This document shows positions 6,384-27,972 of a stretch of DNA of 28,831 nt, in pieces (position 1 is the first letter of the stretch; each line of letters starts with the position of its first letter). Location of the stretch: positions 1 to 28,831 of IMG/VR virus record IMGVR_UViG_3300021599_001134; one strand, given 5' to 3'. This DNA is from a virus. Under the pieces are notes generated by a model. That model was not told where the DNA came from, made no database searches, and saw only the letters and a program-made list of their open reading frames with translations. The position numbers and the translations under genes were made by a program.

Positions 6384-9300
6384 TTAGATTTCCATTAACC
6401 ACCAACCTTGTTGTGATGCTGGAGCTCCAGTAGATGTACCATCATAATTAACGGGTCCAATGTATACAAGTCCGAGACCAGCATTAGGAGTTTGAACTAC
6501 AAGTTCTCCCCCATTATATGTAGTACCTGGATCTGGAGTACCGCCAGAGTTGGTAGTATCACCTTGAATAGCTACACCAGATGGTGCTCTAAATTTAAGT
6601 GATACATTATAAGTTAAATTTCCTCCAATATCAACAACTCTAATTGTATCACCAGTTAGTGGATTTGCTGGTAATTTAAGAACAGTTGAAGCAGTTGGAG
6701 ATACAAAATAATTTATATTTGATTCAACTTCAACAACATCTTGACCAGACTGCACATATTGCCACTTTCTGGCACCAGTTTGAGTAAAGAATCCTTGCTG
6801 ACCAGCAAAGTCAATTGCACCTCCAGAAGGTCTATTAACTGCTTGTTCAATCCATCTTACTTTAAATAGATTGACCTCAGTATCTTCTCCACCAATATTT
6901 AATACTTTATTGAATATTAAATTCTCGCCATTAATTTTAAGATCAGTATTAAATATATTTTCTCCCGAAGTAACGAGTGAGTTTAATAAACCACTAATAG
7001 TTAAATTACCAGTAGAATTTTGTAAGAATAATTTTTGATTATCAATATTATCTGCAGTGATTAATAGATCACCACCTCTAATTGTTGTATCACCGCTAGA
7101 AGAATCAACAAATAGACGATTATAATTAGTAGAATTCCCTACATTCAAGTTACCAAATATGTAAGTTTTTCCAGTAGCACTATCTACAACAAATTTCTCA
7201 TTATTACTTTGATCTTTAATAACCAATCGTTGATTATTTTCGGTATTTGAACCAAGTAAACGAATATCTTTATAAACGGTTAAATTACCAAGAATTTCTG
7301 TATCTCCATTGGTAGAATCAACTGTAAATACATCAACTGCAGGATTTCCTCCATCATTGATAATAAATCTTTGTGGAGATGTAATATTAATAGCATTAAT
7401 AAATGTAAGTTCGGAATCACTTAATCTAAAGATATCACCCTGCTTAATTGTACCACTGAATACTCCTGTAGATAAATTTTCCAAAGTACCAACAGAACTA
7501 TTAGGAAGTCCATTTGCATTATCAATAAAGCTTACGTCTTCTGATAAATTATATCTAATAATTTTGGCGTTATCAGGGTGATCATTTCTCAGATACTTAT
7601 ATCCAGATGGAGATGACCCATCAACAATCATATTACCATTTAAATCAAGAACGTTTCTTGCTCTTTTTACTTTAACACGTAATGGTAAATCAGAAACGTT
7701 GTTTAGGTTAGTTAATTCCGTAACCAATAATAATTCACTATATTGTTCACCAACAGGAGAAGTAATAATATTTTGTTGATCTACTTGTACAGATCTATCA
7801 ATAAGTAAATATGAACCAACTTCAAATTGAATATTTGTGCTTACCTGACCAATTGGTAGGAAATATTCTGAAGGATCATCGGCATCTACTAAAAATTCAG
7901 AACCAGACCACACAGAAGCACCTTGGGTATCAATTGTTCTGTCAATTGTTACTCTAGAGAAAAAGTCAATATTGGTATTATCAATACTTCCTCTAATGTG
8001 AGTAGTAGTTGGAGTTGAGAATGATCCTCTTCTAATTTGATATTGGCCAGCATTCAAACCACCAAGATGAGTTACATCACCTTTCATGGTTGTATTTGCT
8101 TCAACAACTAAAGAGTTATTAATTGTTGTGGTTCCGCCTTTAGAACCAATGCTTAATCTACCAACGCCAGTTGCAAAGTTTAATCTTGAGGTGTTTACAG
8201 TAAACATCTCAACTTGTAAAGCATTTGATTGCAATCTTGCAATTCCAGTACCAACAACTAATCCAGTTCCAATACTTAAATCACCATCTAATTCTGTATA
8301 TCTATTTTTTACATTAAATACTGATCCGTTTTCTTTTGAGTTGGAATTTCTAGCAAATGCACCACCAATACTAATAACACTAATGCTTCCAGTACTGATA
8401 TTATCTGAAGTTCCCAAATTAACAATAGATTTTGTTCCATTATTATGGACATTAAATTCTCCATCTGGAGTAAATGTTCCAATGTTAACTTGCTGAGAGG
8501 ATGGATTGATTCCTAAAGTGATAGTTTGAGCACCACTTGCCAAAGTACCAATAGAAATATTCTGAGCAACGCTAAATGCAGCAGCAGAAGTTGCATTAGT
8601 AACAGCTAAATTAAATGAAGTTTGAGTGGTTGTAATATTACCACCATTCACTTCAAGATTTTTTTGTAATTTTACTTCATCTGTAATTCTAGCATCACCA
8701 TAAACAACAAATGTTCTATCGAGATTTCCTAAGTTGGTATTAATACCAACTCTACCATTATTTGTTGTAGCAACACGCAAGGTAGAATTTGCATCTGGAT
8801 TTAAACTATCACCACCAACTAAGAATGCATTTCCAACATTATTAAATGTTCTATTCGCAGCGGTTGGATTAGATACAAAGTTATTGACTGGAGAAGTAGA
8901 TAATGTTTTACCACTTACAAAAGCAGTTCCAACAATATCAAGATTTGCCCTTGGTTGAGTAGCTGTAGAAACAAATCCCTGTAAACGATCAATATGATCT
9001 GCTCTTGCAAGAGTATTAATACCTAATCTAAAATCACCATAATTATCTGTATTTGTTCTTAATGCTTCAGCACCAAGAACACCAACTTCTTTCCATTGAA
9101 CAGAAGAAACTTCAATTAAAGCATTAACTTGCTGCTGATCTAAACGAGTTGGATCATCTGGACTTTGAGAAACAATAATTTGGGTATTAATAGTAAATGT
9201 TGTTGCCGTTATTGAAGAAACAGTTCTTACTCCATTTACTGGTTCAAATCTACCAATAAAGCCAGTAAATTTAACTTCAGTACCTTGTGCGATACCAATA

Positions 9301-16905: not shown

Positions 16906-16913
16906 TATTTATA
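16906..16913 (-). promoter_or_regulatory. T4-type late promoter TATAAATA
   Basis: Reads TATAAATA on the minus strand, an exact match to the T4 late promoter core recognised by the phage sigma (gp55) complex. It lies about 40 nt upstream of the ATG of the giant gene and 1 nt after the T-tract of the terminator, and no -35 box is needed for this class. It is probably the start point for the whole fibre block (16865 to 1), whose genes have almost no space for further promoters. Confidence 0.85.
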
Positions 16914-16914
16914 C

Positions 16915-16941
16915 AATAAAACCCCCCTGTTACGGGAGGTT
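16915..16941 (-). terminator. Intrinsic terminator ending the tRNA island
   Basis: On the minus strand, AACCTCCC pairs with GGGGGGTT (8 bp including one T-G pair) around a 6-nt loop GTAACA, followed by TTTTATT (two of these T also pair in the stem). This has the layout of a rho-independent terminator. It follows tRNA-Asn by about 40 nt and sits directly before the late promoter, so it should stop early transcripts of the island from entering the giant late gene. The reverse orientation lacks a T-tract. Confidence 0.8.
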
Positions 16942-16982
16942 CTATCGCACACGGAAGGGTAGGTTCTTGGCAGTATCGCCAA

Positions 16983-17109
<127 letters not shown>

Positions 17110-17178: not shown

Positions 17179-17201
17179 TGAATTTGAAAAAACCAAATTC
17201 A
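17179..17201 (-). other. Stem-loop just after tRNA-Leu(UAG)
   Basis: TGAATTTG pairs with CAAATTCA (8 bp) around GTTTTTT, beginning directly next to the tRNA discriminator base. The stem is AT-rich and no T-run follows, so a tRNA 3' processing signal is likelier than a terminator. Confidence 0.4.
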
Positions 17202-17283
17202 TGTCGATGAGAGGACTTGAACCTCCACGTCCGAAGACACTGGAACCTAAACCCAGTGCGTCTACCAATTCCGCCACATCGAC
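17202..17283 (-). tRNA. tRNA-Leu (UAG)
   Basis: The acceptor stem GTCGATG/CATCGAC is perfect over 7 bp, with discriminator A. The anticodon loop TTTAGGT gives anticodon TAG. The long variable arm (TGTCTTCGGACG) is typical of class II leucine tRNAs. The T loop is TTCAAGT. CCA is not encoded. Reads CUN codons, chiefly CUA. It starts 3 nt after the stop of the 70-aa gene. Confidence 0.93.
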
Positions 17284-17286
17284 ATA

Positions 17287-17499: not shown

Positions 17500-17527
17500 A
17501 ATAATCTCTGTATGTGTGTTGTGTGTT

Positions 17528-17599
17528 ACCTCTGGCTGGGAATCGAACCCAGTTTCCATGTGTGTTGTCCACCCGTCCTTACCAATAGACTAACAGAGG
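17528..17599 (-). pseudogene. Degenerate tRNA-like element (Glu-like frame, anticodon arm lost)
   Basis: The acceptor stem (CCTCTGT/CCAGAGG, 6 of 7 pairs), D arm (GTCT ATTGGTAA GGAC) and T arm (CTGGG TTCGATT CCCAG) are those of a normal tRNA, and the D arm is most like tRNA-Glu. The segment that should form the anticodon arm, GGGTGGACAACACACATG, does not fold into a 5-bp stem with a 7-nt loop and lacks U33. An 11-nt piece of it, ACAACACACAT, recurs 46 nt downstream. I think it is a broken tRNA, with no anticodon that can be assigned. Confidence 0.6.
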
Positions 17600-17612
17600 T
17601 TGTGGTAGGCGT

Positions 17613-17742: not shown

Positions 17743-17816
17743 AGCCCAAGATCGGACTTGAACCGATGACCTACGGTTTACAAAACCGTTGCTCTATCCA
17801 GCTGAGCTACTCAGGC
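17743..17816 (-). tRNA. tRNA-Thr (UGU)
   Basis: The acceptor GCCTGAG/CTTGGGC pairs over 7 positions with two wobble pairs. The D arm is GCTC...GAGC, the anticodon arm ACGGT TTTGTAA ACCGT gives anticodon TGT, and the T arm is ATCGG TTCAAGT CCGAT. The discriminator is T, which is unusual, and CCA is not encoded. Reads ACN, chiefly ACA, a codon favoured by AT-rich phage genes. Its first 10 nt overlap the end of cpeT. Confidence 0.92.
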
Positions 17817-18331
17817 ATTCTTGCAAATTCAAATCTACCATATTTAGATCCCCAAATTTGATGATGATGATTGGAACAAAATCCTTTATCAATTACGTAA
17901 TAAAAATCCTGTGTTAATTCAATTTGATTTTGAAGATAAGATTTTCTTCCTAACCAATCAACATGACAATCACACCCAGTTAGTCCACCTTTAAAAGAAG
18001 GACCATCTTGTGTCACAACAACGTCACAACCATTCTTCAATTTTAGCATACTTCTATCAATTTTGTCAAGGTCTTGACAGTTTTTAAATTGATTTTTATT
18101 CTCCACTTCGTAATTTAAAATACGAATTTGGTTTTCTTCTTGAATAGGTTCAAGAATAAACTGACGGTAAGGAGATCTTAGATTGTAATTGTATGCTTGT
18201 TCTCCATAGTAAAGTCCATCTCCAATATCAACATGAGTGATTCTAATGTAAGCAAATTTACTAGGGTTTTTAAATGCTTGAAGTTTGTTTTCAAACTTAC
18301 CAACTAATAGTGCTTTAAATTCTTCAATCAT
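17807..18331 (-). CDS. cpeT: CpeT/CpcT-like phycobiliprotein lyase family protein (174 aa)
   Basis: Member of the CpcT/CpeT family, which in cyanobacteria attaches or presents bilin chromophores to phycobiliproteins of the light-harvesting antenna. In cyanophages it is a known auxiliary metabolic gene, and a phage CpeT was reported to bind phycoerythrobilin without clear lyase activity. Family features seen: YYGEQAY (residues 41-47), SPYRQFIL (53-60), FKGGLTGC (113-120) and the C-terminal IWGSKYGRFEF (159-169), all in the expected order. The length is normal. I start at MIEEFKALLV (ATG at 18331). A start at 18370 adds 13 residues that overlap the upstream gene. The ATG overlaps the upstream stop (ATGATTGA), suggesting translational coupling. 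Its stop codon lies in the 5' end of tRNA-Thr. A direct effect on host pigments is inferred. Confidence 0.88.
   Translation of the reverse strand: MIEEFKALLVGKFENKLQAFKNPSKFAYIRITHVDIGDGLYYGEQAYNYNLRSPYRQFILEPIQEENQIRILNYEVENKNQFKNCQDLDKIDRSMLKLKNGCDVVVTQDGPSFKGGLTGCDCHVDWLGRKSYLQNQIELTQDFYYVIDKGFCSNHHHQIWGSKYGRFEFARMPE
18040..18069 (-). promoter_or_regulatory. Possible internal sigma-70 promoter inside cpeT
   Basis: TTGACA (18069-18064), an 18-nt spacer and TAAAAT (18045-18040) form a near-consensus host-type promoter inside cpeT that could drive tRNA-Thr and genes beyond. In AT-rich coding DNA this could be chance. Confidence 0.35.
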
Positions 18332-18596
18332 CTTTTGGTAATAGATCTGGATTATCAACTTCAAGTTCAAACATAAGAGGGTGAGCAGCTTCAGTCATCA
18401 GATAATTTGATGCCATGTAAAGACATTCATCATCATAATCACGATGATGAAGTGCTTCTGCTTGAACTGATGGATGATCTTGAACTATTTGGGGTAGTTC
18501 ATCAAAGGTATATGGGATACCTTGTATAAAATACATACGTACTACCTCTCCCATATAGAAGACATAGGATTGTGATAACGTATATTTGTATTTCAT
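18324..18596 (-). CDS. Hypothetical protein (90 aa) co-transcribed with cpeT
   Basis: The ATG at 18596 opens MKYKYTLSQSYVFYMGEVVR and the gene ends NPDLLPKDD. Later in-frame ATGs give MGEVVRMYFIQ and MYFIQGIPYTFDEL, and the last is also a sensible start. The upstream region GTGGATGTATC gives only a weak Shine-Dalgarno sequence, and that sequence is part of a stem-loop (18601-18627). The C-terminal half is acidic, with a His/Asp-rich patch (ALHHRDYDDECLYMA). No family recognised. Its last 8 nt contain the cpeT start, so the two are probably translated as a pair. A role in pigment metabolism would be a guess. Confidence 0.65.
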   Translation of the reverse strand: MKYKYTLSQSYVFYMGEVVRMYFIQGIPYTFDELPQIVQDHPSVQAEALHHRDYDDECLYMASNYLMTEAAHPLMFELEVDNPDLLPKDD

Positions 18597-18600
18597 GATA

Positions 18601-18627
18601 CATCCACTACGAAATATTTAGTGGATG
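18601..18627 (-). promoter_or_regulatory. Perfect 9-bp stem-loop before the 90-aa gene
   Basis: CATCCACTA pairs with TAGTGGATG around the loop AATATTTCG. It lies 2 nt after tRNA-Leu(UAA) and 4 nt before the ATG. The only Shine-Dalgarno-like bases (GGATG) are locked in the 3' arm, so the hairpin could reduce translation or mark where the tRNA is cut from the messenger. Confidence 0.55.
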
Positions 18628-18629
18628 AA

Positions 18630-18712
18630 TAGGGAGAGGGGGACTTGAACCCCCACGGGCAATGCCCAACAGATTTTAAGTCTGGTGTGTCTACCGATTC
18701 CACCACCTCCCC
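18630..18712 (-). tRNA. tRNA-Leu (UAA)
   Basis: The acceptor GGGGAGG pairs with TCTCCCT (two G-T pairs), with discriminator A. The anticodon loop CTTAAAA gives TAA, and the stem pairs CCAGA with TCTGT. A long class II variable arm (TGGGCATTGCCCG) and a T arm GGGGG TTCAAGT CCCCC are present. CCA is not encoded. Reads UUA, a leading leucine codon in AT-rich phage genes. Confidence 0.94.
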
Positions 18713-18725
18713 AGGTGATGAGACA

Positions 18726-18754
18726 ATCATAGCATAGTTTGCTGAGATTGTCAA
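18726..18754 (-). promoter_or_regulatory. Sigma-70 promoter for tRNA-Leu(UAA)
   Basis: TTGACA at 18754-18749, a 17-nt spacer, then TATGAT at 18731-18726. The expected start is near 18719, 7 nt before the tRNA 5' end. The -35 box begins 2 nt after the discriminator base of tRNA-Met, so the whole intergenic space is used by the promoter. It should also serve the 90-aa gene and cpeT. Confidence 0.8.
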
Positions 18755-18755
18755 G

Positions 18756-18828
18756 TGCAGGTTGTGGGGATCGAACCCACCTTAGCCGAATTATGAGTTC
18801 GGTGCTTTCGCCAGAGAGCTAAACCTGC
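18756..18828 (-). tRNA. tRNA-Met (CAU), elongator type
   Basis: The acceptor GCAGGTT/AACCTGC is perfect. The anticodon arm CCGAA CTCATAA TTCGG gives CAT, and the T arm is GTGGG TTCGATC CCCAC. The G1-C72 pair argues against an initiator. A CAU tRNA can also be tRNA-Ile2 after lysidine modification, but a tRNA-Ile(UAU) lies next to it, which makes Met the better call. CCA is not encoded. Confidence 0.88.
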
Positions 18829-18834
18829 AACAGG

Positions 18835-18906
18835 TAGGACCGCCGAGAATTGAACTCGGTTCTGCCGCTTATAAGGCGACGGCTTTAACCAATAAGCAAC
18901 GGTCCC
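18835..18906 (-). tRNA. tRNA-Ile (UAU)
   Basis: The acceptor GGGACCG/CGGTCCT pairs fully with one G-T. The D arm is GCTT ATTGGTTA AAGC, the anticodon arm GTCGC CTTATAA GCGGC gives TAT, and the T arm is CCGAG TTCAATT CTCGG. It reads AUA, which most bacteria decode with a lysidine-modified CAU tRNA. The next tRNA starts 6 nt after its discriminator. Confidence 0.9.
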
Positions 18907-18920
18907 ATGACCATGAACTT

Positions 18921-18950
18921 ATTGTATCATATTCGACCTGTTGCTGTCAA
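18921..18950 (-). promoter_or_regulatory. Sigma-70 promoter for the tRNA-Ile/tRNA-Met pair
   Basis: TTGACA at 18950-18945, an 18-nt spacer, then TACAAT at 18926-18921. The -35 box and spacer lie in the last codons of the 43-aa gene and the -10 box starts right at its stop. The expected start is near 18914, 8 nt before tRNA-Ile. Confidence 0.78.
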
Positions 18951-19058
18951 GCGGTTCTTCAAGGCTTGCCTACGCTTCCTGGCATCCCTCAACGCTTGTG
19001 GTTTGAGGTGCCTCTTCTGTTCTTTTTTACTGTGGTGTTGCCAATTTGGAACAGTCAT
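18927..19058 (-). CDS. Small very basic protein (43 aa)
   Basis: ATG at 19058, GAGGAAG Shine-Dalgarno at 19069-19063, and a consensus promoter about 20 nt further up, so this short frame is well supported. The product begins MTVPNWQHHSKKEQKRHLKP and ends RQALKNRLTATGRI. About 14 of its 43 residues are Lys or Arg, with few acidic ones, and the middle (QALRDARKRRQALKNR) is likely a basic helix. It would bind nucleic acid or an acidic host protein such as RNA polymerase or ribosomal components. No family is recognised. It is the first gene of the early-type island and its 3' end carries the promoter of the following tRNAs. Confidence 0.7.
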   Translation of the reverse strand: MTVPNWQHHSKKEQKRHLKPQALRDARKRRQALKNRLTATGRI

Positions 19059-19084
19059 TGGACTTCCTCGACCTGTGTTTATTT

Positions 19085-19113
19085 AGTATAGCACACGGTC
19101 TTGGTCTTGTCAA
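19085..19113 (-). promoter_or_regulatory. Strong sigma-70 promoter at the head of the tRNA island
   Basis: TTGACA at 19113-19108, a 17-nt spacer, then TATACT at 19090-19085: the -35 box is perfect, the spacing ideal, and the -10 box 5 of 6. The expected start is near 19078, 20 nt before the ATG of the 43-aa gene. This is the layout of an early phage promoter used by the unmodified host polymerase. Confidence 0.85.
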
Positions 19114-27964: not shown

Positions 27965-27972
27965 TATTTATT
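27965..27972 (-). promoter_or_regulatory. Late promoter motif AATAAATA before the 863-aa gene
   Basis: Matches NATAAATA, contains the stop codon of the M23 peptidase gene, and lies 20 nt before the ATG at 27944. The same layout is seen before the gp5-like gene, which makes chance less likely. Confidence 0.6.

Follow-up and report, generated by a model that had tools for sequence, protein, structure and literature searches.

A tRNA and small-gene island inside the structural gene block of a T4-like cyanomyovirus carries four promoters of the host sigma-70 type (P1–P4), all present in its relatives, together with a leader hairpin built around a late-promoter core. We find it rather probable that this island acts as an early transcription cassette within a late block, in which P1–P4 would work early, the hairpin would delay the synthesis of proteins, and a late restart would follow. 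The main new points are the P4 promoter, placed inside the cpeT gene, and the leader hairpin; both were missed in an earlier sequence-only reading of the same DNA.

The stretch analysed here (the window) is an IMG/VR virus record of 28,831 bases, and the record holds nothing beyond it. It represents part of a T4-like cyanomyovirus genome, and the named records closest to it are those of Synechococcus myoviruses. The minus strand carries its large genes, several of which match tail, hub and fibre families; every feature located below is on this strand as well. In minus-strand order, the gp5 hub gene (23905-20357) comes first, followed by a second hub protein gene (20366-19119), the island (19118-16940) and a giant fibre open reading frame of 3532 aa which ends at 6384. 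The place of the island is that of the cyanophage hot-spot characterized as ‘near gp5 with tRNAs’ in the text of PMC3037559. Exact NATAAATA late motifs of the T4 type were found at 27972, 23933 and 16913, each upstream of a large gene, thus the surroundings of the island look late. The giant fibre gene is preceded by the T4-type late promoter TATAAATA (16906..16913), and the island ends in a terminator-like stem with a T-rich tail (16922..16939), with a similar sequence present in L001, L003 and L006.

The first gene of the island (18927..19058) encodes a basic protein of 43 aa and unknown function (phrog_3309, PHROG E 5.8e-16), with relatives in 164 phage records. In different phages this gene, often unannotated, is placed after gp32, gp46 or gp5 or before tRNA-Leu; it is a small gene moving between places. 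It is followed by tRNA-Ile(UAU) (18833..18906; ARAGORN, Rfam tRNA 58.7 bits) and by a tRNA with a CAU anticodon (18755..18828; ARAGORN, Rfam), which was called as tRNA-Met. The anticodon loop of the latter is CUCAUAA, and its antisense strand matches the plastid ycf2 5'UTR family, which overlaps trnI-CAU antisense, at 44.3 bits, a score below the gathering threshold. The loop and this match together suggest that the CAU tRNA is probably tRNA-Ile2(CAU) and not tRNA-Met; if so, the phage would hold two readers of AUA, with tRNA-Ile(UAU) adjoining. One host is reported to be devoid of a UAU tRNA (PMC9964418). Five further tRNAs were called by ARAGORN, namely tRNA-Leu(UAA) (18629..18713), tRNA-Thr(UGU) (17743..17816), tRNA-Leu(CAA) (17527..17600), tRNA-Leu(UAG) (17201..17284) and tRNA-Asn(GUU) (16982..17055), with Rfam as a second source for the three tRNA-Leu genes and tRNA-Asn(GUU). 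Codons of the large open reading frames in the window lean to A/T endings, and several of them are read by the island tRNAs (UUA 30.4 and ACA 35.9 per thousand), which fits the role of cyanophage tRNAs discussed in PMC9964418. A candidate SAM-II riboswitch at 17165-17118, upstream of a 40-aa open reading frame, was rejected, as it scored 23.4 bits where 44 are needed. In the RefSeq record of S-PM2 (NC_006820; loci L002, L184 and L187), the annotated tRNAs are displaced by about 146 kb from where ARAGORN places them, apparently because their coordinates were left as they were when the genome was rotated.

Three near-consensus sigma-70 promoters had been claimed in the sequence-only reading, and our promoter scan recovered each of them, on the minus strand, with its hexamers, spacer and target as described. 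P1 (19085..19113; TTGACA-17-TATACT, extended -10) has a predicted start at about 19078, 20 nt from the ATG (19058) of the 43-aa frame. P2 (18921..18950; TTGACA-18-TACAAT) overlaps the 3' end of that frame and is predicted to start at about 18914, 8 nt from tRNA-Ile(UAU) at 18906, while the predicted start of P3 (18726..18754; TTGACA-17-TATGAT, extended -10) is at about 18719, 6 nt from tRNA-Leu(UAA) at 18713. With starts only 6-8 nt ahead of a tRNA, P2 and P3 transcripts would have little leader to be removed. Each of the three promoters has 11 of the 12 consensus bases and a TG preceding the -10 hexamer, and all four, P4 included, have the hexamers and the 16-18 nt spacer of the host sigma-70-type early promoters of T4-like cyanophages. 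Such quality and density had been called unusual inside a structural block. Four sites of at least 11/12 with TG were observed, against a mean of 0.118 and a maximum of 2 in 1000 first-order Markov windows, and three 11/12 sites within 400 nt of one strand occurred in 0 of the 1000 simulated windows.

For the relatives, 80 hub loci, including L004, L005 and L006, were reduced to 46 non-redundant ones, the window counted in. L004 and L005 (IMG/VR; hub-protein identity of 84 and 88%) and L006 (63%) have all four promoters at similar places. Across the 46 loci, the 97 kb downstream of the hub gene hold 80 sense sites of at least 11/12 and the 159 kb upstream of it hold 6, so that the density of near-consensus sense promoters rises about 20-fold past the hub gene; the corresponding antisense sites numbered 6 and 2. 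The claim of strong host-type (sigma-70/SigA-like) promoters within a late structural block is thus upheld, as the sites are present and are kept in relatives. A P1-like site of at least 10/12, in varied form and with its start between -40 and +300 nt relative to the hub stop codon, was found in 37 of the 46 relatives. We considered whether P1 belongs to the 43-aa gene and rejected this, since members of that family standing after gp32 or gp46 have no strong promoter directly upstream; P1 thus goes with the post-hub position. A strong site starts 40-43 nt upstream of tRNA-Leu(UAA) in 21 of 32 loci, and the DNA flanking it differs, with another tRNA upstream in some phages and unrelated sequence in others. 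No separate promoter precedes tRNA-Leu in L007, L008, L014, L015 and L018, where it stands directly behind the 43-aa frame. P2 reaches 10-11/12 in L004, L005 and L006 and is conserved in close relatives only, whereas P1, P3 and P4 occur in many phages. The sites persist in spite of changed spacers and flanks. A strict promoter pattern run over the whole genomes of S-PM2, S-RSM4 and S-CAM3 gave too few hits to assign user genes. Many post-hub promoters (L050-L071, L002, L014) share CAG before and (A/G)ACTCTGT after the -10 hexamer, which might be the target of an additional factor.

P4 (18040..18069; TTGACA-18-TAAAAT, extended -10; predicted start at about 18033) equals P1–P3 in quality and lies within cpeT (17807..18331), a gene for a CpeT/CpcT-family antenna protein (PF06206, E 2.7e-37; phrog_488). 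With synonymous-codon shuffles as the null, sites of at least 11/12 were found in 18 of 24 non-redundant cpeT genes (1.0 expected, maximum 5), and in a set of 69 genes that contains these 24, a strong P4 site was present in 64 (11.1 expected, maximum 20). Antisense strong sites were found in none of the 69 cpeT genes, and hub genes, used as the shuffle control, showed no surplus (0 observed, 0.7 expected). Two single cases apart, the start of the -35 hexamer is confined to two registers. In 47 cpeT genes the hexamer is read as TTG ACA (Leu-Thr, frame 0), and in 16, including that of the window, C TTG ACA is read as CTT GAC (Leu-Asp) in another frame, at an alignment position 26 nt further upstream. 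The codon of one conserved leucine is TTG in 46 of the 47 genes, where it is part of the -35 hexamer, and CTA in 15 of the 16, where it is part of the -10. The promoter codons had the top conservation scores among the columns tested in each register set. On the cpeT protein tree the two registers fall on opposite sides of one branch (support 99/95), so they do not stand for many independent events. Excess over the shuffles in two frames, without any excess in hub genes, indicates that the DNA motif is conserved and not the protein alone; the explanation of P4 as a by-product of protein sequence was ruled out by the synonymous shuffles and the two reading frames.

The end of cpeT merges with the next tRNA gene, the last 10 nt of cpeT being the first 10 nt of tRNA-Thr (17807-17816). 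The cpeT stop codon forms nt 8-10 of tRNA-Thr in the window and in 38 of 69 relatives, which covers most phages where tRNA-Thr adjoins cpeT. RNase P cutting would thus leave the cpeT RNA without its stop codon, and this could be the reason why tRNA-Thr needs a promoter inside cpeT. A scan of one genome for host cpeT, meant as a control, yielded no more than two short, weak matches and a piece that is probably of phage origin. On a contig in a Lewinella metagenome bin (L101), tRNA-Thr and tRNA-Ala come after cpeT as they do in cyanophages, and the contig is therefore probably phage DNA within that bin.

The leader hairpin (18601..18627) lies between tRNA-Leu(UAA) and the phrog_4134 gene (18324..18596; T4-GC730, E 1.1e-38), which encodes 90 aa of unknown function. 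Its stem has 9 bp (5' arm 18627-18619, 3' arm 18609-18601; -11.2 kcal/mol, z -3.07), with TAAATA at 18620-18615, and the 3' arm contains the ribosome-binding site of the phrog_4134 gene, which the stem could mask as in T4 gene e and I-TevI. TAAATA follows tRNA-Leu in 42 of 51 non-redundant regions (4.4 expected), and a stem search with shuffles found at least 6 bp around it in 35 of these (6.7 expected, maximum 12); S-CAM3 and Sf-FR1 are examples of phages with the stem. At most positions of the stem close to the loop, between three and six types of base pair occur. An RNAalifold consensus fold on the MAFFT alignment of the hairpins returned no structure, a failure probably due to misaligned arms of unequal length. 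In T4 late promoters, RNA starts 6 nt after TAAATA. A start at this distance would place the 5' end of the late RNA between -3 and +5 nt relative to the 3' arm and leave out the 5' arm. The core of the hairpin in the window, CTAAATA, is one base off NATAAATA, so the motif at 18620 is not the exact late one. S-PM2 has plain TATAAATA in the position of the hairpin, without a stem, and two other phages do likewise. Within at most 70 nt upstream of 47 structural genes of S-PM2, the NTAAATA forms are ATAAATA (15), CTAAATA (4), TTAAATA (2) and GTAAATA (1), with CTAAATA upstream of g23 and TTAAATA upstream of gp5. These variants make the CTAAATA of the window a plausible, not a certain, late promoter.

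Under the cassette model, host RNA polymerase with the main sigma factor would start at P1–P4 soon after infection, and the early products would be the 43-aa mRNA with its protein and the phage tRNAs. P4 would feed tRNA-Thr and the tRNAs after it, while RNA from P3 would read on into phrog_4134 and cpeT; as the hairpin would hide the ribosome-binding site, we propose that phrog_4134 and CpeT are not made early. Later, transcription of the gp55 type would start inside the hairpin, at TAAATA, and the resulting RNA, devoid of the 5' arm, could be translated, so that phrog_4134 and CpeT would appear late. The stem at 16939-16922 would end the unit and TATAAATA at 16913 would restart transcription for the fibre gene. 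The earlier claim of an early, independently expressed cassette therefore stands in part: independent expression is favoured by promoter type, targets and conservation, and early timing is suggested by promoter type. Read-through from the hub genes could yield late tRNA transcripts beside the early ones, thus an either/or test between early starts and late read-through, as put forward in the sequence-only reading, would be too strict. More tentatively, and with less confidence than the cassette itself, one DNA stretch may serve two programmes, in which host-type promoters, one of them written in the codons of cpeT, produce early tRNAs, the hairpin with its late promoter delays the operon proteins, and tRNA and cpeT messages are mutually exclusive.

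Other explanations of the promoters differ in how well they agree with these data. Chance matches in A+T-rich DNA would account for sites of at least 9/12, which stand at the chance level in the region with no overall surplus (70 observed, 71.3 expected); however, the strong surplus over three different null models and the conservation in relatives make this reading of the promoters extremely improbable, and for P1, P3 and P4 jointly a chance origin is refuted. The island had also been suggested to be imported, i.e., a recent mobile cassette with its own promoters. The tRNA content does differ between phages, and cyanophage tRNA-rich spots accompany broken synteny according to the text of PMC3037559, but several named genera share, in variant forms, the order hub, small genes, tRNA-Leu(UAA), phrog_4134, cpeT, tRNA-Thr, tRNA-Asn and giant fibre, and promoter positions were re-created in different flanks and in two cpeT frames. 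Moreover, the difference in G+C is small (0.40 against 0.36, with tRNA genes counted), and the island proteins searched gave no match to an integrase or a homing endonuclease. Patchy presence, foreign composition and a mobility gene, the marks of an imported mobile cassette, are thus not seen, and we regard a recent import as very improbable.

The role of P4 and the existence of a switch are less clear-cut. P4 is present in 61 of 64 cpeT genes with a tRNA downstream and in 2 of 4 without a tRNA within about 1.5 kb, which points to the tRNAs as its targets, the comparison with four genes being small. The first tRNA begins 187-241 nt beyond the predicted start, a long leader, and together with the site kept in those two genes without a near tRNA this would agree with P4 and its codon conservation serving another product, either a small RNA made from the 3' portion of cpeT or a shortened form of CpeT. 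We consider such a role unlikely, given the 61 of 64 genes and the fact that two of the five genes lacking the site also lack near tRNAs. It may further be argued that the promoters add transcription throughout infection, with no early/late switch, and that the hairpin has no role beyond stabilising or trimming the RNA that follows tRNA-Leu: late read-through of the hub unit would also make tRNAs, and some phages have TATAAATA without a stem. A stem needed for stability alone would not require TAAATA, however, and this motif spans stem and loop across different stems, with the 3' arm reaching the ribosome-binding region. This explanation is hence the less favoured one, although slightly less doubtful than a role of P4 outside the tRNAs, and we retain the early cassette with the hairpin-delayed proteins.

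Parts of this arrangement resemble known systems. In the hot-spot of Sullivan et al. 2010 (PMC3037559), at the same genomic place, small genes and tRNAs separate hub from fibre genes as they do in the island; the part of that text considered here does not contain the conserved promoter set, the cpeT promoter or the leader hairpin. In cyanomyoviruses, early genes are read by unmodified host polymerase with sigma-70 and late genes from NATAAATA (reviewed in PMC2984593). The sigma-70-like early promoters of S-PM2 and Syn9, read by that polymerase, have the same -35 and -10 hexamers as those of the island, but the latter stand within a late structural block, close upstream of tRNAs. The same review reports that no sigma-70-like promoters were found in S-RSM4, whereas we find several such sites in the S-RSM4 island. 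The T4 genes e, soc, 49 and I-TevI have a leader hairpin with a late promoter inside, and in gene e and I-TevI the stem silences the long early RNA while the late RNA is translated (PMC3014915, PMC2988022). The likeness to gene e, soc and I-TevI lies in a stem over the ribosome-binding site and a late RNA that would start past the 5' arm; in contrast to T4, the hairpin described here belongs to cyanophages and separates a tRNA gene from the downstream phrog_4134-cpeT, and its regulation is a prediction. T4 gene 32 promoters inside segG (PMC2988022) are likewise located within one gene and serve the next, as P4 would, but here it is codon choice that keeps P4 in 64 of 69 genes, in two registers and different frames.

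Why lytic phages carry tRNAs, and when these are made, is still debated. The island provides exact predicted start sites for cultured phages such as S-PM2, and the cassette offers a reason why tRNAs could be early despite their location in a late block. P4 illustrates clearly how codon choice can preserve a promoter, here in two reading frames. If the hairpin works as proposed, control of the T4 lysozyme type would extend to cyanophages, and it would cover a gene acting on the light-harvesting antenna of the host.
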